Source: Candidatus Symbiothrix sp.
GTDB lineage: Bacteria > Bacteroidota > Bacteroidia > Bacteroidales > Azobacteroidaceae
DNA length: 42,331 nt
Direction of reading: 5' to 3'
NCBI GenBank assembly: GCA_031261295.1
Contig: JAISKT010000372.1
Location: forward strand, 1 to 42,331
Every line of letters begins with the position of its first letter. Within the stretch, counting starts at the first letter, position 1. Shown here in pieces: positions 16,068 through 25,837 of this stretch. The translations under genes and the position numbers were made by a program. Below the pieces are notes generated by a model. It made no database searches, was not told where the DNA came from, and worked only from the letters and a program-made list of their open reading frames with translations.

Positions 16068-17225
16068 TTATATTTTTATGTAGCACGCATACGTTGGTCC
16101 CACTATGCTCTCCCAATCCGAGGAGCTTTTCGCCAGCGTCATGCTTCTATCGCCGGCGAGCACCAGTTGGGCCAGGTGGAAGTCATTTGTGCCAGTCGCC
16201 AGCCAGACCATTCCGACCCATTGTGCCGGGGCTGTCGAAACGGCGGCCCCCGTAGTCGGTCGTTTGGCTTTTGGGCACGAAGATGGAGCTTTTCCTCCTA
16301 CATAATAAAATTTTACACCACCCTGCGTTATGTAACGGGTCGTACTGGCACCAGCGGGGAGAACCGTAATTGCACTGGTAGCCGTTTTCGAGCCGCTTGT
16401 CGTCGTAACCGTAATCGTAGCAGTACCGCTGGCGACTCCAGTTACCACACCGCTCGCACTAACGGTGGCTACAGCTGTATTGCTTGATTTCCAACTCACT
16501 GTCTTAACAGCGGCAGTGGACGGCGCTACGGTCGCAGTTAGCGTTTTTGTGGCTCCTGCGGCAATCACTGTCGCAGAGGTTGGACTTACAGTTACGCCGG
16601 TAACCGCGATAGTGACAGTGACCGCCTTGGCTGCAGAGGTAATCCCGCCTGCCGATGCAGTAATGTTTGTTGTACCGGAACTCACAGCGGTCACTACGCC
16701 GGTAGATGCATTGACAGTCGCAATCGCTGTGTTACTACTTGCCCAAGTGAGCGTTGCTCCTGTAACTGCCAAAGATGGGGTAACCGTAGCTGCCAGAGTT
16801 TGTGTCGCACCGACACTTGTCATGGTGGTCGGAGTAGTTGTAATAACTACGCTTTCAACTGTAACTACCGCTGGTTCCACTTTATTCCATAATCCTCCGT
16901 CCCATACATACAGACCCGCACCATCGGTCAGTTCGTCGTTCGTATTATACACGATCAAGCCTTGCAAGTCACTGTCAATGATAGAAGCCCTGTTGGTAAA
17001 TACATCCGGAATCTGATCGATTTCATCTATATACACATTCAAAGGAAGTAAGCCAAGATTCGACCCTTCGGGAGTCGTCAAATCCAGTAATGCTCCTTTC
17101 ACAGCATCCGTGTTTCCGCCAATATGTACCTGCGCTTGCAAAATGGCAGGCAAAACCAGCAAAAGGGTGGCAAGGCATGCCACCCAATTTCTTTTTGTTC
17201 TCTGTTTCATGTTCATTTTCTTCAT
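16068..17225 (-). CDS. Secreted protein: shared N-terminal module plus two bacterial Ig-like (Big_2) domains
   Basis: The chosen start (ATG at 17225) overlaps the stop of the upstream gene by one base (TAATG), giving 385 residues. A signal peptide ends at about LPAILQAQ. Then comes an about 90-residue module (VHIGGNTDAVKGALLDL through GLIVYNT to GAGLYVWDGGLWNKV) also found in three other proteins of this window. Two Ig-like Big_2 repeats follow (SSNTAIATVNASTGVVTAVS; SSNTAVATVSASGVVTGVAS). The C-terminal 95 residues (from about TTRYITQGGVKFYYVGG) are unrecognised. It is likely surface-exposed. It is the second gene of the operon led by the structured RNA at 17592-18056. Confidence 0.8.
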   Translation of the reverse strand: MKKMNMKQRTKRNWVACLATLLLVLPAILQAQVHIGGNTDAVKGALLDLTTPEGSNLGLLPLNVYIDEIDQIPDVFTNRASIIDSDLQGLIVYNTNDELTDGAGLYVWDGGLWNKVEPAVVTVESVVITTTPTTMTSVGATQTLAATVTPSLAVTGATLTWASSNTAIATVNASTGVVTAVSSGTTNITASAGGITSAAKAVTVTIAVTGVTVSPTSATVIAAGATKTLTATVAPSTAAVKTVSWKSSNTAVATVSASGVVTGVASGTATITVTTTSGSKTATSAITVLPAGASTTRYITQGGVKFYYVGGKAPSSCPKAKRPTTGAAVSTAPAQWVGMVWLATGTNDFHLAQLVLAGDRSMTLAKSSSDWESIVGPTYACYIKI

Positions 17226-17566
17226 TAAATTTTCTTCCATATAGGTTTCCAGCCACCGGTTTCTCCTGAAACGGGCCCTGTCCAGATATAAATACCTTCC
17301 GATCCTGTCGCGGTATTATAGACAATCAGTCCGACAAGTTTATCGGCTGCATCTTCATCAGTAGAAAACGCTGCTACACTGTTTAGAGTCAAACTGCTTA
17401 CTTTGGGTAATAACAGCCCACCTACATACCCATTCCCATTGTTCAAATCCAGAACAGCACCTTGGATTGGAACATCCGTGTCAGCTCCTCCGATACGCAC
17501 TTGCGCATTCACACTTGCTGCACCCAAAACGATGAGTATCAGCGCTAAAAAAATCATCTTTTTCAT
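17225..17566 (-). CDS. Small secreted protein made of the shared N-terminal module only
   Basis: This 113-residue protein has a signal peptide (MKKMIFLALILIVLGAASVNAQ) followed by the module VRIGGADTD, GAVLDLNNGNG, GGLLLPKVSSLTLN, LVGLIVYNTATG, EGIYIWTG and a C-terminal WKPIWKKI. It is paralogous to the 24935-25261 protein (both have the form AQVxIG...LDL...VYN...G.Y.W.G...WKP). The start at 17566 is preferred to an upstream in-frame ATG at 17632, because it gives a clean signal peptide and the upstream part lies in the structured RNA. Function unknown. Confidence 0.75.
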   Translation of the reverse strand: MKKMIFLALILIVLGAASVNAQVRIGGADTDVPIQGAVLDLNNGNGYVGGLLLPKVSSLTLNSVAAFSTDEDAADKLVGLIVYNTATGSEGIYIWTGPVSGETGGWKPIWKKI

Positions 17567-17591: not shown

Positions 17592-18056
17592 CTTCGAATA
17601 AGGCGCATAGCGCCTGTTTTATAAAAGAGCAAGGCAACCGGTAATTATAAATTTAATAAGAATGAAAAAAATCTTGAGGATTGCCTTACTCTAAGCGATG
17701 GGCGGACGCGTTCAAATAGCTAAAATGAGAGAAAAAACCATTGAACCTCTACGCCCGCCAATTTTCTATGACTTGTTCTGCATGTCTGTAGAATTTATGC
17801 CTCCAAGTCCCTGAGAAGCGGTTATTTAAAATAAAAAAACGTGGGACTTTAACTTTATTTGTTCTAGAGGTTCTGAACTACCCAATCCTACAAATAAGTC
17901 AAGCCCACGGATGAACGTGGACGTTTACTCATTTATTCTTGTAGGATTTGAAATTGTTCAGATTTCTAGAACAAGAATAAAAGCTAACGCTTTTCTTTAA
18001 TGAATTATGTCCTTATAAAATACTTTCTATTTTGTAATAAATTTTTATCGTTTATT
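17592..18056 (-). ncRNA. Structured leader RNA, copy 1 (about 465 nt)
   Basis: This region has no credible CDS but has nested complementary segments that recur in copy 2 with compensating changes. In minus-strand RNA order the helices are: P1 17974-17965 with 17868-17859; P2 TCTGAAC (17962-17956) with GTTCAGA; P3 AATCCTACAA with TTGTAGGATT; P4 CCACG/CGTGG. A nearly invariant hairpin follows (GGACTTG...CAAGTC, near 17810-17770). Next come a GC-rich helix (TTCAA/TTGAA inside GGGCG/CGCCC, 17760-17700), a 12-pair helix (AGAGTAAGGCAA with TTGCCTTGCTCT) and a small hairpin (GGCGC/GCGCC) about 25 bases before the gene. A run of seven Ts follows CCCACG at 17840. Transcript end and role are unknown. 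I do not recognise it as any known RNA class. Confidence 0.75.
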
Positions 18057-18063
18057 TAGTTGG

Positions 18064-18095
18064 CAAAAGTAATATCTTTTTTTGGAATTACCAAA
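18064..18095 (-). promoter_or_regulatory. Promoter of structured RNA copy 1
   Basis: On the minus strand TTTG (18095-18092) is followed after 20 bases by TACTTTTG (18071-18064). The same two elements occur at the same spacing upstream of copy 2. The transcript would begin near 18056. Confidence 0.75.
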
Positions 18096-18262
18096 AAATT
18101 ACCAAAAAATAACTTTTTTTGGGTGTATTCGTGCACCTTTGTTTCGTGTACCCCGCATCCAAAAACAGCCCTTTATCCTAATTCGTAACTCAGAATTTCT
18201 GATTTCTGATATAATTTTACTACTTTTACGCGATTTTTGAAATAGCTAATTGAATTAAAGGT

Positions 18263-19711
18263 GTGAAAGCGCAAAAAACACTGTTTTTTATTATAAGTGT
18301 ACTGCTGTTATTGGGATTTGTCAGCTTAGTTTTTCCAAAAAAAGGAATTACTTTTGGCGACCGGCAACTCTATTTTCCTACCATAGAGGATATTCTTTCG
18401 AAAAAAGACCATTCTTCGACTACGGCTTCCCAACGGATAACGGACTTGGAAGAGGGTTTGTCCATGCAACAAACACAACATGATTCGCTCTATTACGACT
18501 CGCTTTCTTTTTATATCGCTTTCTTCCAAAATCACCCTTCCCGGATGCACCTGCCGGAGGGTAATTGGAACTATTTCGATGATTTGTTTGAAACGTTCGA
18601 TCATTGCAAGGAGCGGAACGAAGTTGTCCATATCCTGCATTACGGCGATTCGCAAATCGAAGGAGACCGCATCACAGGAAACATCCGGCAGAAGTTGCAG
18701 GAAAAATTCGGCGGGATAGGCCCCGGATTGTTGCCGGCTGTCCAAGTCATTCCGTCAACCGCTGTGGGACAAACGGCTTCGGAAAATATCGAACGCTACA
18801 TTATTTCGGGCATGCATCAAAACAAAGCGCCCCACAGACGTTACGGGGCTTTGGGACAGGTGGGAATGACGGCCGGCGAGAGTTATATTTCGGTAAGCGC
18901 CCGGAACTGGAAAACGACAGCCGAAAAGGTAAAGGAATTTCAAAAAATCAGATTGTTCGTGGGACGTCCGAGCGCCAATTTTAAGGCGAATCTGTCTGTT
19001 CCCAACCAGGCTGTTTTGAAGAGAACGATCAGCGATAAAAAAGAACCGGTGGAAGTATTGTCCTGGACGCTGGACGAACCGGTTAAGAAATTTTCCTTAC
19101 GGATAATCGGCTCGGGGGAAATATACGGCATTGCTGCAGATGGAACGTACGGCATTGCGATGGATAATATCCCTTTCCGGGGAAGTTCCGGAACATTTTT
19201 CAACAGCATGGATTCCACGGTATTAAGTTCCATGCTTGCGTATTTGAATACGAAATTGGTCTTGCTGGAGTTTGGTGGAAATACCATACCCGGTATCAAA
19301 AACGATAAAATAATCGAAAGTTATAAAAACAAAATGTCTGAACAAATCGCCTATTTCAGGCGGCTGTGCCCGGAAGCTAAAATCATCCTGATCGGGCCGG
19401 CGGACATGTCCACCAAAGTCAACGGCAAATTGCAGACACATCCCCGGTTGGAAAAAGTAGTGGAAGCCTTGAAAGAAGCGGCCTTGGAGAATGGAGCGGC
19501 TTTTTGGAATATGTACGAGGTGATGGGCGGGAAAAATTCCATGATCGATTGGGTGAAAAATTCGCCTTCTTTAGCGGCGCCGGATTACATCCATTTCAGT
19601 ACAAAAGGCGCGGAACGGATCGCGGATCTGTTTTATGAATCCCTGTTGGTTTATTACGACTACTACAATTTTAAGAAAGAACACGGTAACAATGAAAAAA
19701 TGAAAGAATGA
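18263..19711 (+). CDS. SGNH/GDSL-fold hydrolase or acetyltransferase, membrane-anchored, first gene of O-acylation cluster
   Basis: The 482-residue protein starts with GTG (AAAGG lies just upstream) and has one N-terminal membrane segment (TLFFIISVLLLLGFVSLVF). The SGNH catalytic Ser block is ILHYGDSQIEGDR (Ser130), the third block is LLEFGGNTIPG, and the C-terminal Asp-His pair is in APDYIHFSTKGAERIAD. With an MBOAT partner downstream it is probably the periplasmic enzyme passing acyl groups to a cell-surface glycan, like AlgJ or AlgX. This role is inferred from context. Its stop overlaps the next start (ATGA). Confidence 0.75.
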   Translation: MKAQKTLFFIISVLLLLGFVSLVFPKKGITFGDRQLYFPTIEDILSKKDHSSTTASQRITDLEEGLSMQQTQHDSLYYDSLSFYIAFFQNHPSRMHLPEGNWNYFDDLFETFDHCKERNEVVHILHYGDSQIEGDRITGNIRQKLQEKFGGIGPGLLPAVQVIPSTAVGQTASENIERYIISGMHQNKAPHRRYGALGQVGMTAGESYISVSARNWKTTAEKVKEFQKIRLFVGRPSANFKANLSVPNQAVLKRTISDKKEPVEVLSWTLDEPVKKFSLRIIGSGEIYGIAADGTYGIAMDNIPFRGSSGTFFNSMDSTVLSSMLAYLNTKLVLLEFGGNTIPGIKNDKIIESYKNKMSEQIAYFRRLCPEAKIILIGPADMSTKVNGKLQTHPRLEKVVEALKEAALENGAAFWNMYEVMGGKNSMIDWVKNSPSLAAPDYIHFSTKGAERIADLFYESLLVYYDYYNFKKEHGNNEKMKE

Positions 19712-21009
19712 AAAAAATGAAAGAAATAAAAGAAATAAAAGGAATACAAAAATATATATTGATTCTGTTTTTGCTTGGCCTCTGTATTCAACTGCCGGCG
19801 CAACGCTCGAAAAGCGATTTGCAGGAGGTAAATATCCGGGAATATGATTTTTTAGACTATGCCTACAAAGATATTCAAGTGCCCGGTGGAGATTCTACCC
19901 GCTTGAACCGGTTTTTCCAAAAAGTGGACACCTTGCTCCGGAAAGGGGAGGGGAGAATCAATATCTTGCATATCGGCGGCTCCCATGTGCAGGCGGATAT
20001 GTTTTCGCACCAGGTTCGCCAAAATCTGGATGCCATCAATCAGGATTTCCGGACGCCGCGCGGATTTATTTTCCCTTTTTCCGTGGCGAAAACCAATAAT
20101 CCGACCAACTATAAGGTAACTTATTCGGGCGAATGGGGTGCGGTGCGGAATGTGCAGCGAAACCGGAATATCCCCTTGGGAATGGGTGGAATAGCGGTTT
20201 ACACCCGTGATACGCACGCCCAAATCAACATATCGCTCAATGCGGATCAAATGATGCGGTGGGATTTTAATCAACTCCGGCTATTGGGCCACGTGATGGA
20301 TGGAAGTAGTGATATGGTCATTCCCGTCCTGCATTATACTAATGATTTGATTGAAGGAAAATTGGATTTGATCAGTAACACCTACCTCTTTGAATTGCCC
20401 GCGCCGGATGATTCTTTCAGTGTGGGATTTGTACAAAAAGACACGGTTCCCCATACGTTTGTGGTCAATGGATTTATTCCGGAGAAAGAAACGCCCGGCA
20501 TTGTATATCATGCGATTGGGGTAAATGGCGCTGCGGTTCCTTCTTATTTGAATAGTGAACATTTTGAAGAGGAACTTCCGTTATTGAATCCCGACCTGAT
20601 TATTTTTGCTATCGGAATCAATGATGCGGCGGCCGGTGATTTCACAGAAGATTCGTTTCGCCGGGATTACGATGCTTTGATTGAAAAAATCGAACGGGTC
20701 AACCCCGGTTGCGCTTATATTTTTATTACAAATAACGACTCGTTTCGGAAGGTTTCGCGAAGGAAATACGCTGTCAACCGGAATGGACTTATCGCCCGGG
20801 ACGCTTTTTATAAGTTGGCTCAAAATCATCAGGGAGGCGTCTGGGATTTGTTTTCCCTCATGGGCGGCTTAAGTTCCATGAAGCAATGGCAGGATGACGG
20901 TTTGGCTCAAGCGGATAAAGTCCATTTCAAGAAAGACGGCTACCTCCTGATTGGGGATTTATTTTACAATGCACTGATTGATTACTATAAACAGATTGAT
21001 TTTGAATAA
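19708..21009 (+). CDS. Second SGNH-fold periplasmic protein of the O-acylation cluster
   Basis: This 433-residue protein has a signal peptide (YILILFLLGLCIQLPAQ). SGNH blocks are ILHIGGSHVQADM (Ser92, in the GGSH form), FAIGINDAAAGDF (block III Asn) and DKVHFKKDGYLLIGDLF (Asp-His). It is related in layout to the preceding gene. The first residues (MKKMKEIKEIKGI) come from a 9-base ATGAAAGAA-type repeat that also runs through the end of the upstream gene, so the true start may be any of the first ATGs. It is followed 5 bases later by the MBOAT gene. Confidence 0.75.
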   Translation: MKKMKEIKEIKGIQKYILILFLLGLCIQLPAQRSKSDLQEVNIREYDFLDYAYKDIQVPGGDSTRLNRFFQKVDTLLRKGEGRINILHIGGSHVQADMFSHQVRQNLDAINQDFRTPRGFIFPFSVAKTNNPTNYKVTYSGEWGAVRNVQRNRNIPLGMGGIAVYTRDTHAQINISLNADQMMRWDFNQLRLLGHVMDGSSDMVIPVLHYTNDLIEGKLDLISNTYLFELPAPDDSFSVGFVQKDTVPHTFVVNGFIPEKETPGIVYHAIGVNGAAVPSYLNSEHFEEELPLLNPDLIIFAIGINDAAAGDFTEDSFRRDYDALIEKIERVNPGCAYIFITNNDSFRKVSRRKYAVNRNGLIARDAFYKLAQNHQGGVWDLFSLMGGLSSMKQWQDDGLAQADKVHFKKDGYLLIGDLFYNALIDYYKQIDFE

Positions 21010-21014
21010 AATAC

Positions 21015-22862
21015 ATGATATTTGATTTTCTGAAAACGCTATTTGCTTTTGATGCTAACTCGCCGCTCTTGTTTACCCAGTTTTATTTCTGGGCGTTCTT
21101 TGCATTGGTGTTTGCCGGATTTGCCAAGTTGCAAAACAAGATATGGATGCGAAATGCCTTCCTTTGTTTCGTCAGCCTTTTCTTTTATTACAAAACCAGC
21201 GGTCTATTCGTCTTAATCCTGATCGTTACTACCGTATTTAATTTTTACCAGGCCAAATTCATTGACACTTCCGGTACGGAAAAGAAGCGGCGGCTGTATT
21301 TGTTTCTCGGATTATTGGGTAACTTGTTCTTTCTCTGTTATTTCAAATACGCCTATTTCCTTACGGATGTTATCAATAATGTTTTTGGAATCCATTTGCG
21401 GGTGTTCAACGCCTTTGCCTGGATGGGCAACCTGTTCAGCAAAGGACAACCGTTTAATGTATCAAGTATTTTATTACCCGTAGGAATTTCTTTTTATACG
21501 TTCCAGAATATCAGTTACTTGATGGATATCTTCCGGAAGCGGATCAAGCCGGTGGAAGAAATCCTCAATTTCGGTTTTTACGTCAGTTTTTTCCCGCAAT
21601 TGGTGGCCGGGCCTATTGTCCGCGCCAATGAATTTGTCCCCCAGATATACAAGAAATATTACTTGGGAAGAAAACAGTTCGGGTTGGCTATTTTCTGGAT
21701 AATAAACGGATTGGCTAAGAAAATTATTTTAAGCGATTACATTGCCGTCAATTTTGTGGACCGGGTGTTTGAAAATCCGACCATGTTTTCCGGTTTTGAA
21801 AACCTCGTGGCCTTATTCGGTTATTCCTTGCAGGTTTACGCCGATTTTTCGGGATATACCGACATCGCTATCGGTGTCGCCATGTTGATGGGCTTTTATC
21901 TTCCCAAAAACTTCAATTCCCCGTACAAAGCCACCAATCCGGGCAATTTCTGGAAACGCTGGCATATCTCGCTTTCCAAGTGGTTGCAAGACTATTTGTA
22001 CATTCCCATGGGCGGCAACCGGAATGCCACATTTGCCACTTATTTCCTGATAATCACCATTTCGCTTATCGCGTTGATTCTTTCCGGCAGCATTTGGGTC
22101 GGCGTGTTATTGTTGCTAATATTGGGAAGTCTTTGTTTTATCGCCTGTAAATATCCCGAGCGGAAGAAAAAGATAAATACCAACCTGAACCTGATGAATA
22201 CAATGCTTATCGGAGGCCTCTGGCACGGAGCCAGTTGGAATTTCATGATTTGGGGCGGACTCAACGGATTGGGCATTCTGGTCTATAAGTTTTGGAAAGA
22301 TTGGGATGTGTATATACGGACACAAGCGCTGCTGCTGTTTATCACTATTTGCTTGATACTGAATTGCATCTTCCCGCTGCCGGTCTTCCGGATACTATTG
22401 GTTTGGATTTGCATTGTCCTGACCGGAACTGCCGTCCGCCTGTTATACAACATTTTGGATGGCAAACGTTCGTTCAAGTATTTGGAAATGTGTTGGGCTG
22501 TCTTTCAAACCTTTGTCTTTATTTCATTTACCCGTTTGTTTTTCCGTTCCGGTTCCAACCTGGATCCTGCCGAAGCCAACCAGACGGCATGGGATACGGC
22601 GCAAAGTATGGTGGCGCAAATAGGGGGCAAATGGGATTTTTCCCAGATCGGGCAGATGGTTTATGAATACCGGTACGTATTTTCGTTGTTGATTATCGGG
22701 ATGTTGATTCATTGGTTGCCGGAAAACTTCAAACGCCGCTACCGGCTGGGTTTTGCCAAATTACCCTTGACCCTAATGGCGCTAGTCGTAGTGGTTGCGG
22801 TTTTTATTATTTACCAATTTATCACGGCCGACCTTCAATCGTTTATTTATTTCCAATTTTAA
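21015..22862 (+). CDS. MBOAT-family O-acyltransferase (AlgI/DltB type)
   Basis: This 615-residue polytopic membrane protein has the MBOAT/AlgI signature: FFPQLVAGPIVRANEFVPQI, YADFSGYTDIAIGVAMLMG, NFWKRWHISLSKWLQDYLYI and the catalytic GGLWHGASWNFMIWGGLNG (His404). Such proteins move acyl, usually acetyl, groups across the inner membrane for polysaccharide modification. It is longer than AlgI (about 520) because of extra C-terminal membrane helices. Together with the two SGNH proteins it forms a complete surface-glycan O-acylation module. The glycan itself is not encoded here. Confidence 0.9.
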   Translation: MIFDFLKTLFAFDANSPLLFTQFYFWAFFALVFAGFAKLQNKIWMRNAFLCFVSLFFYYKTSGLFVLILIVTTVFNFYQAKFIDTSGTEKKRRLYLFLGLLGNLFFLCYFKYAYFLTDVINNVFGIHLRVFNAFAWMGNLFSKGQPFNVSSILLPVGISFYTFQNISYLMDIFRKRIKPVEEILNFGFYVSFFPQLVAGPIVRANEFVPQIYKKYYLGRKQFGLAIFWIINGLAKKIILSDYIAVNFVDRVFENPTMFSGFENLVALFGYSLQVYADFSGYTDIAIGVAMLMGFYLPKNFNSPYKATNPGNFWKRWHISLSKWLQDYLYIPMGGNRNATFATYFLIITISLIALILSGSIWVGVLLLLILGSLCFIACKYPERKKKINTNLNLMNTMLIGGLWHGASWNFMIWGGLNGLGILVYKFWKDWDVYIRTQALLLFITICLILNCIFPLPVFRILLVWICIVLTGTAVRLLYNILDGKRSFKYLEMCWAVFQTFVFISFTRLFFRSGSNLDPAEANQTAWDTAQSMVAQIGGKWDFSQIGQMVYEYRYVFSLLIIGMLIHWLPENFKRRYRLGFAKLPLTLMALVVVVAVFIIYQFITADLQSFIYFQF

Positions 22863-22953
22863 GAAATTATCATTTAGGTAATCTGTGTTAATATTATTCA
22901 TCATTTAAAATTAAATATCAAAAAATAGAGGGGAAGATGAATATATTGCAAAC

Positions 22954-22986
22954 AAACCTTCCAAGTCTTTAAGACTTGGAAGGTTT
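22954..22986. terminator. Perfect 33-base palindrome between convergent operons
   Basis: Two 16-base arms (AAACCTTCCAAGTCTT and its reverse complement) flank a single T. The element lies 92 bases after the MBOAT stop and 140 bases beyond the end of the convergent secreted-protein gene, so it may stop transcription from both sides. No long T-run follows, so it may rather be a dispersed palindromic repeat. Confidence 0.55.
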
Positions 22987-23025
22987 ATTAAGAAACGCAA
23001 CCCTACCTTTTTCGCCTGAATCAAA

Positions 23026-23042
23026 GGTTGAGCGCCTCAACC
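23026..23042. other. Short hairpin GGTTGAG-CGC-CTCAACC
   Basis: A 7-pair stem with a 3-base loop lies 84 bases beyond the end of the FISUMP-type gene. On the minus strand it is followed by TTTGATT, so it could be a weak terminator. Evidence is limited to the hairpin. Confidence 0.3.
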
Positions 23043-23126
23043 CTAATTCCTAACGGCCAAAGACCGAGCGGTTCAAGGGCCGGTAAAGCGCTCGTTTTCA
23101 AATTGACAAATGGTCAAATTGATGAA

Positions 23127-24926
23127 TTAATCATTTCTAGCGCAACGCACGCTATAAAAAGACGCCTTACTCCCATTATGCCTACCTAATCCCGATTCAC
23201 CCGAATAAAAATTACGGTTCATGCCGGTGTTCACCGCAACAGAACTACTCGTATGAAAGTATGCTTGCGAGCCGTAAACAGTGCTGGAGCCTGAGCTATA
23301 GTATCCCACCAAAAGCACGTCGAAACCGCCATCGGCGCTAGAGAAGCTACTACCATAGGTAGCCGTACCGTTCACGGCAGTCGTGCTTTTCATCTGGCGA
23401 CCCCAATAAGTCAAGTTTGTATTGCCTGTGTTCGGGCGGGTTCCCGTTGAACCGGTGTAGTCATAACCGGCTGCTCCGGAATAAGCAGTTTCTTGATTGG
23501 CGTATGGCTTGGGGTTAGAAGCAATTTCTTTTTCTAATTGTCCCCATTCATAATCACTTGGTAAATGCCAACCGGTCGGACAAATACCCTGACGGGTAGA
23601 AGTGGTTCCACTGAATGCATCGCTCGCTTCCGTTGCAGAAGTCCCGATATTAGCAGCAGCCCAGGTATAAATCAAACCATAAGTAGGATTGTTAATATAA
23701 ACAGTCGAACTGGCATTCGGAAAATACAAGTAAGCTGCATTGTTATGACCCTGATTACCTGCTGCTGTGATGTTTTGTTTTGTAGCCCCTTGCATCGTAT
23801 AAGTCGAACGCAAGTTCTGCGTCATCCAACAACCGGCATCGCCAAATTGGTGTGCATAGTAGAAATTTCCTTCTGCATCCGTAACAGAAGTACAGCAATC
23901 AGCATTCTTTATTGTCACTGTCCGTGATACGGTATATACTGCAGTCGGGCAAGCGCCGGTACTCGTTGCCACAATCGTAGCGGTAATAATCACTTGGATA
24001 CCGGTGGCATCAATATTTGTATTGCCAATCAAATTGGCCGGATTGTATTTTACCGTTACCTTATTGCTTGCCGGAGTAGTACTGGTAGTAGCCGGCGTAA
24101 ATGTTTCCACCGCATTTTCCGGATTGGTATAACTCCATGTGACCGAGGTAATCGTAAATCCGCTACCTACCGTTCCGCTCAAGGCATACTCATACATCTT
24201 TGTAAAATCAGCTTGTACCCGGGTATTCCAATCCGGATCGGTGTCACTGCTGCGTTTGATGTCAAAACAATTTTCACCACCTACCTTAAAACTGCTGTCT
24301 GTATTCAAATTAACAGTCACTGTTTTTGTGCTTTCAGCGATAGGAGTTCCGCTGATATTACCGTTCACCGTAATCACAGCCGATTGTCCGACAGCCGCTG
24401 CTGTAATCCCGTAATAATAACAGTTATCCACTGAATTGTAAGTCAAAGTACCGTTATAAGCAGCGCCTGCGAGTGTCGCCGTTACGTTGCTTACGGCCAA
24501 ACTTATCCATTGTGCGGTTGACCAACCGGTAGGTTTTGTCAATTTGAAAGTGACACTTCCACAAAAGGACGTACCGCTTCCTACCGTTTCGATAGTTACC
24601 GCCGGCAATTCCGCTTGTACTATCGACCATTTACTTCCGTCCCAAACAAATACACCGGGGCCGCCCAAGTTGGCGCCGGTATTGTAAACCACCATCCCTT
24701 TGGCATGAGTTGGGTCGCCTCCATCCAACTGAAAATCAGTGGCTGTACTCGACAATGACACTCTCGGCAAAAGCAATCCCTTATTGGAATTCAAATCCAA
24801 ACCGGCGCCGGTACGGGGAGCCTGGTCGGCTCCAATTACCACTTGCGCCAAACCAACTGCTGTCCCCAAACTCAGGAACAACCCCATTACAATGACTATT
24901 CTTTTCATTTCTTTCATTCTTTTCAT
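23127..24926 (-). CDS. Secreted FISUMP-domain protein with shared N-terminal module
   Basis: From ATG 24926 the protein has 599 residues, with a signal peptide ending near GTAVGLAQ. The shared module follows (VVIGADQAPRTGAGLDLN, GMVVYNT, GVFVWDGSKW). The middle region is rich in Thr, Ser and Val and looks like beta-sandwich repeats. The C-terminal about 240 residues are the Fibrobacter succinogenes major paralogous (FISUMP) domain: VTDAEGNFYYAHQFGDAGCW, MTQNLR, GICPTGWHLPSDYEWGQLE and a final FYSVRCARND. A surface role is inferred and the ligand is unknown. Upstream in-frame ATG 24959 would overlap the preceding gene, so 24926 (8 bases after that stop) is preferred. Confidence 0.8.
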   Translation of the reverse strand: MKRMKEMKRIVIVMGLFLSLGTAVGLAQVVIGADQAPRTGAGLDLNSNKGLLLPRVSLSSTATDFQLDGGDPTHAKGMVVYNTGANLGGPGVFVWDGSKWSIVQAELPAVTIETVGSGTSFCGSVTFKLTKPTGWSTAQWISLAVSNVTATLAGAAYNGTLTYNSVDNCYYYGITAAAVGQSAVITVNGNISGTPIAESTKTVTVNLNTDSSFKVGGENCFDIKRSSDTDPDWNTRVQADFTKMYEYALSGTVGSGFTITSVTWSYTNPENAVETFTPATTSTTPASNKVTVKYNPANLIGNTNIDATGIQVIITATIVATSTGACPTAVYTVSRTVTIKNADCCTSVTDAEGNFYYAHQFGDAGCWMTQNLRSTYTMQGATKQNITAAGNQGHNNAAYLYFPNASSTVYINNPTYGLIYTWAAANIGTSATEASDAFSGTTSTRQGICPTGWHLPSDYEWGQLEKEIASNPKPYANQETAYSGAAGYDYTGSTGTRPNTGNTNLTYWGRQMKSTTAVNGTATYGSSFSSADGGFDVLLVGYYSSGSSTVYGSQAYFHTSSSVAVNTGMNRNFYSGESGLGRHNGSKASFYSVRCARND

Positions 24927-24934
24927 TTTTTTAA

Positions 24935-25261
24935 TTATAAAAGAACTACCGGTTTCCAATCAGTACCATTCCACACATAAATGCCTTTTTCAATCGAACC
25001 TGTTTTTGTCGGATTGTAAATAATCATACCAATGGCATCCGTATCCGTTTCCGCAACAGAATTGCCCAATTGCAAAATCGTCGTGTTCTGCAGCTCAAAG
25101 CTTGGCAGTAACAAACCGAGTTTTTGTGTTCCTAATGGAGATAAATCCAGAATCGCACCGGCGTGCGGTTCTTTGCTGTTATCACCGATAATCACTTGTG
25201 CATTTGCACCGGCTGCACTCAAAACGATAAGTGTCAGTGCTAAAAAAAACTTTGTTTTCAT
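24935..25261 (-). CDS. Small secreted protein, paralogue of the 17225-17566 product
   Basis: This 108-residue protein has a signal peptide (MKTKFFLALTLIVLSAAGANAQ) and then the shared module: VIIGDNSKEPHAGAILDL, LGLLLPSFELQN, IGMIIYNPTKTG and GIYVWNGTDWKPVVLL. Like its paralogue it is the first gene after a structured RNA leader and is followed by a larger secreted protein carrying the same module. This points to duplication of the whole leader-plus-two-gene unit. Function unknown. Confidence 0.75.
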   Translation of the reverse strand: MKTKFFLALTLIVLSAAGANAQVIIGDNSKEPHAGAILDLSPLGTQKLGLLLPSFELQNTTILQLGNSVAETDTDAIGMIIYNPTKTGSIEKGIYVWNGTDWKPVVLL

Positions 25262-25284
25262 TATTTTTAATTTAAATTTGTATT

Positions 25285-25798
25285 TCGTACAAGGCGCATA
25301 ACGCCGATTAAAAAGGGCAAGGCAACCGGTAATTATAAATTTAATAAAAATGAAGAAAAATGATGGGTTGCCTGTACCCTAAGCAGTGGGCGGACGCGTT
25401 CAACCGGTTAAAAATGAGAGAGAAAAAACCATTGAACTGAGACGCCCGCCAATTTCTACCCCCCAACCCCCTAAAGGGGGCTTTAGGGGTGCTTTTTATA
25501 TGTGTTTTTAAAAATATTTTGACTTGTTCTGCATGTCTGTAGTATTTATGCCTCCAAGTCCCGAAGAAGCGGTTATATTTAAAATGAAAAAACGTGGGAC
25601 TGAAACTTTATTCGTACTAGAGGTCTTAGGAAACCCGTACTTACAAATAAGTTATGCCCACGCATCTGCGTGTGCGTTACTTTATTCTTGTAAGTACTGA
25701 AATTTCCTAAGTTTCTAGTACAAGAATAAAAGCTTACGCTTTTTAAAGAACTATGTCTTTATAATCTATTTTCTAATAAAATTCTTTTATCGTTTAAT
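25285..25798 (-). ncRNA. Structured leader RNA, copy 2 (about 510 nt, with palindrome insertion)
   Basis: This region aligns over its full length with copy 1 and keeps every helix while changing the bases. P1 is now GTACTAGA/TCTAGTAC with TTATTC/GAATAA; P2 is CTTAGGAAA/TTTCCTAAG; P3 is GTACTTACAA/TTGTAAGTAC; P4 is CACGC/GCGTG. The helix before the gene is AGGCAACC/GGTTGCCT with AGGG/CCCT. The hairpin with GACTTG...CAAGTC is almost unchanged in sequence. An about 60-base insertion (25456-25519), containing a C/G-rich palindrome, separates two helices without breaking either. A six-T run follows CCCACG at about 25590. Confidence 0.75.
25458..25492. repeat. Dispersed C/G-rich palindrome inserted in RNA copy 2
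   Basis: The core CCCCCTAAAGGGGG is flanked by CCCCAA and CTTTAGGGGTGC. Related copies lie at 36746-36778 and, more diverged, inside gcvP at 28490-28541. It is absent at the matching site of RNA copy 1, so it was probably gained by copy 2. Confidence 0.8.
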
Positions 25799-25805
25799 TA
25801 ATTGA

Positions 25806-25837
25806 CAAAAGTAATATCTTTTTTCATAAAAACCAAG
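25806..25837 (-). promoter_or_regulatory. Promoter of structured RNA copy 2
   Basis: On the minus strand CTTG (25837-25834) is followed after 20 bases by TACTTTTG (25813-25806), the same arrangement as copy 1. The transcript would begin near 25798. Confidence 0.75.

Follow-up and report, generated by a model that had tools for sequence, protein, structure and literature searches.

The leader RNAs closest to the element described here are of two sorts. Terminator/antiterminator riboswitches and T-box leaders combine, in a 5′ leader, a covarying aptamer-like domain, exclusive terminator and antiterminator pairings and a loop–loop contact; put and EAR RNAs work in cis, their fold acting on RNA polymerase so that the genes behind them are fully transcribed, and these RNAs, like JUMPstart/ops-type leaders, are structured RNAs directly behind the promoters of surface or accessory operons. 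We describe a structured leader that resembles both sorts in layout, in a contig of Candidatus Symbiothrix sp. (Bacteroidota; GenBank assembly GCA_031261295.1, contig JAISKT010000372.1), whose full 42,331 nucleotides (nt) we call the window. The leader occurs twice, at 17592–18056 (copy 1) and 25285–25798 (copy 2), on the minus strand, as are all leader parts and the genes behind them. It differs from riboswitches and T-box leaders in its many unrelated downstream families and its hundred or so copies in one genome, from put, EAR and JUMPstart/ops-type leaders in a built-in terminator-like hairpin, and from both sorts in having no Rfam match. We propose, with a probability of about 0.6, that it is a cis-acting bistable transcription attenuator of Bacteroidota, in which a rod-like fold would allow read-through and a pair of hairpins would impose a stop.

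A first-pass annotation of this sequence had recognised no known class and proposed a candidate new riboregulator family under selection for RNA structure, naming an Rfam match beforehand as a possible refutation. A search of Rfam 15 gave no match at the gathering threshold in the window or in 16 diverse homologous loci, on which ground a known Rfam class is rejected; hits below threshold look like chance. Covariation, another check set in advance, was kept rather than lost among further homologues, and this selection for structure, together with the absence of an Rfam match, upholds the candidate family. Structured RNA candidates from the same phylum are listed in PMC2864571, whose table includes Bacteroidales-1, Bacteroid-trp, Flavo-1 and 6S-flavo; those with Rfam accessions have no match here, and Bacteroides-2 and GUCCY-hairpin, given without an accession in that table, fall outside the Rfam comparison. 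No description of such an element was found by title or abstract start in the open-access PMC literature.

Copy number and distribution

The annotation had treated the leaders as a family of two; both copies are real, but they belong to a very large family. In their own genome (4.15 Mb in 388 contigs, 88% complete), BLAST found 53 matching pieces, a pattern for the core gave 59 exact matches (none for its reversed control), a model R1 gave 105 matches, and a covariance model R2, with 150 of 2277 candidates scored, gave 106 at E ≤ 0.001, both window leaders among them. Of 44 genomes from the genus and family, 32 had R1 matches. Counting the own genome, R2 matched 156 of 393 sampled genomes of the order and 54 of 395 sampled across the phylum, nine of the latter outside the class, in scans that scored only seven candidates per genome; deeper scoring of eight genomes picked from those already known to match, of which four are single-contig, gave 37, 20, 14, 10, 6, 5, 4 and 3 matches. 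A general pattern scan of named genomes yielded at least 109 stretches at at least 80 loci, and each of 80 listed pattern loci and three viral contigs matched R2 at E ≤ 0.01. Among the matches listed are Bacteroides, Parabacteroides, Alistipes, Prevotella, Christiangramia, Chitinophagaceae, Chryseosolibacter and Ignavibacteriae, while listed matches titled Lentisphaerae and Pelotomaculum may be mis-binned contigs. The three viral-collection contigs (L180, L181 and L182) match both the pattern and R2, and phages or proviruses may therefore carry the element.

A conserved rod

What is widespread is a core of about 160 nt followed by a hairpin; the annotated leaders did extend further, but their gene-proximal 3′ portion is an addition specific to the window's own clade. 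The core, comprising P0, P1, hairpins HA and HB with P2, P3, P4 and the strand S before a U-run, occupies 17834–17994 in copy 1 (by R2 match and covariation) and 25587–25743 in copy 2 (by R2 match). In folding, both 5′ domains beat 200 of 200 dinucleotide shuffles (z of −7.3 for copy 1 and −6.6 for copy 2). The compensating changes first reported between the two leaders are present: P2 changes from TCTGAAC/GTTCAGA to CTTAGGAAA/TTTCCTAAG, P3 from AATCCTACAA/TTGTAGGATT to GTACTTACAA/TTGTAAGTAC, one P1 pair flips from T-A to A-T, and AGAG/CTCT becomes AGGG/CCCT in the helix before the gene.

Homologues were compared in several alignments. A1 comprises 60 of the 106 own-genome matches and one relative (61 copies); 20 divergent own-genome matches were also brought into the comparison. 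Loci L031–L038 were dropped as repeats and L055 as a partial core. A3 (86 rows) joins 68 of 73 rows of A2 to 18 of the 61 of A1, leaving out of A2 two antisense echoes, one duplicate and two weak rows. The models used to fit A2 and A4–A6 had been derived from the rod, which favours this fold. The pattern that selected the rows of A6 fixes parts of HA and HB and two P2 positions, which are therefore not independent evidence there, and leaves the helices of the second fold, described below, untouched.

Over the 61 copies, 96.2% of cells in the rod are paired and 429 are double-changed; slid partners give 34.5–45.9% and 34–72. Two of five whole-structure measures fail to clear a column-shuffle control in this set: there are 79 further pair types (81.2 in the shuffles, 434 of 500 as high), and 21 pairs show a double change (18.4 in the shuffles, 13 of 500 as high). 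In more diverse alignments all five measures exceed 500 of 500 shuffles, and 89 distinct, mostly distant rows hold 930 double-changed cells against 160–192 in slid controls, a count that covers P1, P2, HA, HB, P3 and P3b together with the pairings AGCGUU:AACGCU and CGUGGG:CCCACG. Selection for RNA structure, claimed at first from two copies, is thus upheld over many homologues, and the covariation behind the annotated rod is strong; the rod is, however, one of two conserved folds.

The 427 cells of P2 are 99.8% Watson–Crick, with no G-U pair; P1, P3b, P4 and the terminator helix tolerate such pairs. The sequences flanking P2, GAAA/TTTC and GGGT/ACCT, fold into the short hairpins HA and HB, paired in 94.2% and 95.6% of cells over 86 rows; compensating changes in these are few but real (four rows change from U-A to C-G in HB, and the base of HA has one A-U row and one U-A row). 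Since the flanks fold in this way, P2 can be read as a loop–loop pairing compatible with either global fold, and its reading as a plain internal helix of the rod was retained for one state only. Across the paralogues of A1 the same P1, P2 and P3 arm sequences recur in different combinations (GTACAT and ACAGTA in P3, for example), as if exchanged by recombination.

A second fold of two hairpins

The partner of the strand that follows P1, directly 5′ of the U-run, is the 3′ strand at the tip of P4 (CGUGGG:CCCACG). This pairing holds in 98.2% of cells over 86 rows, with five of six pairs double-changed, and in 91.9% over the 89 rows, with all six double-changed; its counterpart in the 5′ half, AGCGUU:AACGCU, holds in 92.7% and 82.6%, respectively. 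When the 3′ half is folded by itself, its terminal helix closes it in 84 of 86 rows. In the window it forms a long stem tipped by HB (−22.3 kcal/mol in copy 1, −22.6 in copy 2), and the 5′ half forms a hairpin tipped by HA (−17.3 and −16.0 kcal/mol). The 5′ hairpin thus spans 17920–17991 in copy 1 (AGCGUU:AACGUC, stem A:B and HA), where the A:B partner swap bears on it as well as folding alone, and 25674–25740 in copy 2; the 3′ hairpin spans 17840–17909 (CGUGGG:CCCACG, stem C:D and HB) and 25593–25662, these last three from folding alone.

Swapping partners in A6 costs energy for the stems of both folds: A:B has −5.36 kcal/mol with its own partner and −2.89 with swapped ones, C:D −3.87 and −2.07, B:C −3.96 and −2.61, and A:D −2.27 and −1.74. 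No gain is seen for A:C, B:D or the t5:t3 row; the a:a′ row, whose energies are meaningless, is set aside. With P2 included, the two-hairpin fold has 313 double-changed cells against 54–118 in controls, on an alignment fitted to the rod. An alternative pairing that would exclude the putative terminator is thus backed by covariation, more weakly so in a 28-row set (A4). A ring closed by CGUGGG:CCCACG and AGCGUU:AACGCU as pseudoknots was dropped, as the halves folded alone and the partner swap show simpler local hairpins.

In half-fold tests against 40 dinucleotide shuffles per row, the rows lying below 40 of 40 number 45 of 91 and 46 of 86 for 5′ halves; for 3′ halves they number 63 of 91 and 65 of 86. 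A shifted segment scored best (below 40 of 40 in 85 of 91 and 85 of 86 rows), but it overlaps the P3/P4 rod and is therefore unusable as a null. In competition for their shared partner, the late strand outbids the 5′ strand of P4 in 72 of 84 rows.

Promoter, U-run and putative capture hairpin

The element usually lies between a Bacteroidota-type promoter and a sense gene, and its GC-rich stem stands directly before the U-run. For counts of promoter, U-run, P5, open reading frames (ORFs) and upstream motifs, five of 217 rows were removed as duplicates and the antisense echo L144 was kept. TAnnTTTG lies upstream of 168 of 211 elements (24.9 in shuffles), and 102 of the 211 have the full TTG-N17-23-TAnnTTTG (2.3 in shuffles). 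In the window, TAnnTTTG (TACTTTTG in both copies) is at 18064–18071 in copy 1, by string search, and 25806–25813 in copy 2, with TTGG upstream at 18091–18094 and 25833–25836. The annotation had placed it at the same spacing in both leaders, which is right with respect to their reported starts, 8 nt behind the element in each case; from there to the first hairpin the two copies differ by 7 nt.

Across 31 first-aligned copies the promoter element is conserved and the sequence 5′ of it is not shared. This last finding bears on whether the element is a repeat at the level of DNA, a recombination site or non-autonomous mobile element whose hairpins act as DNA. The 106 matches in one genome, several at contig ends, and the near absence of G-U from the variable P2 arms would suit such a repeat, but the acceptance of G-U in the other helices, the preserved orientation of promoter and gene and the unshared upstream sequence make it extremely improbable.

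Of 212 elements, 155 have TTTTT where the stem ends and 14 have it at a control position; the window U-runs are at 17828–17839 (TTTTTTTATTTT) and 25581–25592 (TTTTTTCATTTT). Mostly 20–30 nt further downstream lies hairpin P5, whose loop complements the strand before the U-run. Such a loop complement is found in 107 of 210 elements (26–45 in ten shuffles), in sets such as AGTCCC:GGGACT, TTGTCC:GGACAA, AGTTCC:GGAACT and AAACCC:GGGTTT, and 57 of 99 complement-bearing elements have a P5 stem (mean 19 and maximum 32 in 200 shuffles). In the window P5 spans 17799–17819 and 25550–25570, each with the loop GGGACT, which complements S (AGTCCC in copy 1).

Upstream motifs are also enriched: in the 75 nt 5′ of P0 in 212 elements, GCCTATG occurs 15 times (0.15 in shuffles) and GACATAA 32 times (2.1), and some leaders carry AAAGGAGG in their 5′ end. 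The sequence ATGACATAA is present in 11 of 212 upstream stretches (0.33 in shuffles); because the window's clade has AAGACATAA instead, we do not claim a conserved minimal upstream ORF.

Downstream genes

A sense ORF starts within 150 nt of 126 of 180 elements, compared with 29 of 164 on the antisense side. Such a bias, like a conserved interaction with P5 past the U-run, is hard to reconcile with a stand-alone small RNA that has its own promoter and terminator, acts in trans and has genes beside it only incidentally; although promoter and terminator-like hairpin delimit a unit of about 230 nt, and copy number is high, we consider this reading very improbable. By a simple hydropathy rule, 71 of the 126 downstream ORFs are signal-peptide-like, against 236 of 982 other ORFs.

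Homologues have their ATG at a median of 56 nt after the core. In many of them the ATG lies a few dozen nucleotides past P5, as would be expected of a translational switch in which the strand before the U-run and P5 govern ribosome access to the start codon. The window genes, however, start 233 nt (copy 1) and 289 nt (copy 2) beyond P5 and yet keep all of the switch parts, which are nearly invariant across the 61 copies. Distant start codons behind near-invariant parts point to control of transcription rather than of the start codon, and the order of stem, then U-run, also speaks against translational control, which we regard as quite unlikely.

The Pfam scan covered 118 of 124 downstream ORFs. 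These 118 proteins matched 84 Pfam families, led by LRR_5 (8), LRR_8 (7), Por_Secre_tail (4) and FISUMP (3) and including HlyD, HTH and restriction-modification domains, and with no family above eight matches they show no evident metabolic theme in Pfam. Genes so far from any one pathway weaken the case for a single-metabolite riboswitch. They would suit a processive antitermination or expression-boosting leader, an RNA that acts in cis on RNA polymerase and senses nothing, as would the great length of some downstream genes (one ORF is 6.5 kb) and the position of the element directly behind its promoter. A conserved terminator-like 3′ hairpin with a U-run, and a P5 capture loop, nevertheless exceed what such a device needs, and we judge this alternative unlikely.

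Leaders and operons in the window

In the own genome, in the window and at many other loci, the leader is followed by a two-gene unit, of which the first gene encodes a secreted protein of about 110 amino acids (aa) with a near-constant signal peptide and the second a larger secreted protein. Behind copy 1 these are a small secreted protein found as an ORF (MKKMIFLALILIVLGAASVNAQ; 17225–17566), without any match in a Pfam scan, and a secreted protein with a Big_2 domain by Pfam (16068–17240); behind copy 2 they are a small secreted protein, again found as an ORF (24935–25261), and a FISUMP (Fib_succ_major) protein by Pfam and NCBIfam (23127–24959). The clade-specific 3′ domain, recognised by sequence, lies at 17592–17760 in copy 1, with helices GGGCGG/CCGCCC and GGCAA/TTGCC, and at 25285–25451 in copy 2; in several own-genome copies BLAST aligns it as a separate piece. 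The spacer between core and 3′ domain holds a repeat-like insert in copy 2 (CCCCTAAAGCCCCCTTTAGGGGG; 25452–25520), and those of L019, L024, L026, L028 and L030 hold others (CCCCTAAATCCCCTGAAGGGGACTTGGCTGACGCACG and similar). The stretch between the two leader operons (18263–22862) encodes two hydrolases of GDSL/SGNH type and, after them, an MBOAT acyltransferase, together an apparent set for surface O-acylation.

A proposed bistable attenuator

In the attenuator that we propose, the element's own TTG/TAnnTTTG promoter would drive it as the 5′ leader of an accessory gene, often for a secreted protein. In the stop state each half would fold on itself, the 5′ half through AGCGUU:AACGCU, stem A:B and HA, the 3′ half through CGUGGG:CCCACG, stem C:D and HB, so that the second hairpin abuts the U-run as an intrinsic terminator. 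In the go state the halves would exchange strands: P2, the loop pairing of HA and HB, would nucleate pairing that extends into P1 (the variable a:a′ plus A:D) and P3 (the variable c:c′ plus B:C), the terminator stem would be dismantled, and its freed strand AGUCCC would be captured by the P5 loop. A ligand, a protein or a translation event may set the balance between the folds.

Several observations weigh against this model. The predicted energy of the whole core has a median near −59 kcal/mol and that of both hairpins combined is about −40, so that the stop state would need kinetic trapping or a factor; with the rod lower in energy and the late strand winning its competition, the outcome should depend on timing or on a bound factor. 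The halves beat all 40 shuffles in only about half to three quarters of rows. In the A4 swap (28 rows) A:B and C:D show a small gain, A:D and B:C a slight one, and CGUGGG:CCCACG, nearly constant in that set, none. In the distant set only about 68% of P0 cells are paired, the U-run is broken in some relatives (CTTCAT and CTTCGT, at G012 and G032 loci), and 54 of 180 elements lack an ATG ORF of at least 50 aa within 150 nt downstream. Finally, transcription and termination, like the order of folding and the factor that sets the balance, are what we infer from sequence.

A further and distinctly improbable extension is that the variable segments a, b and c form an address code. Private, near-strict Watson–Crick recognition between hairpins would keep a hundred or so co-resident switches orthogonal, and stopped 5′ transcripts could unlock loci of the same code in trans, making a genome-wide network of strand-exchange RNA switches over surface genes.

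An element that matches 106 times in a single genome, and in 156 of 393 genomes sampled within its order, would rank among the commonest cis-regulatory RNAs of Bacteroidota. A natural switch that trades two hairpins for a rod and uses private loop codes would be unusual in design, and the element offers a direct, testable route to the switching of large repertoires of secreted and accessory genes in these bacteria.

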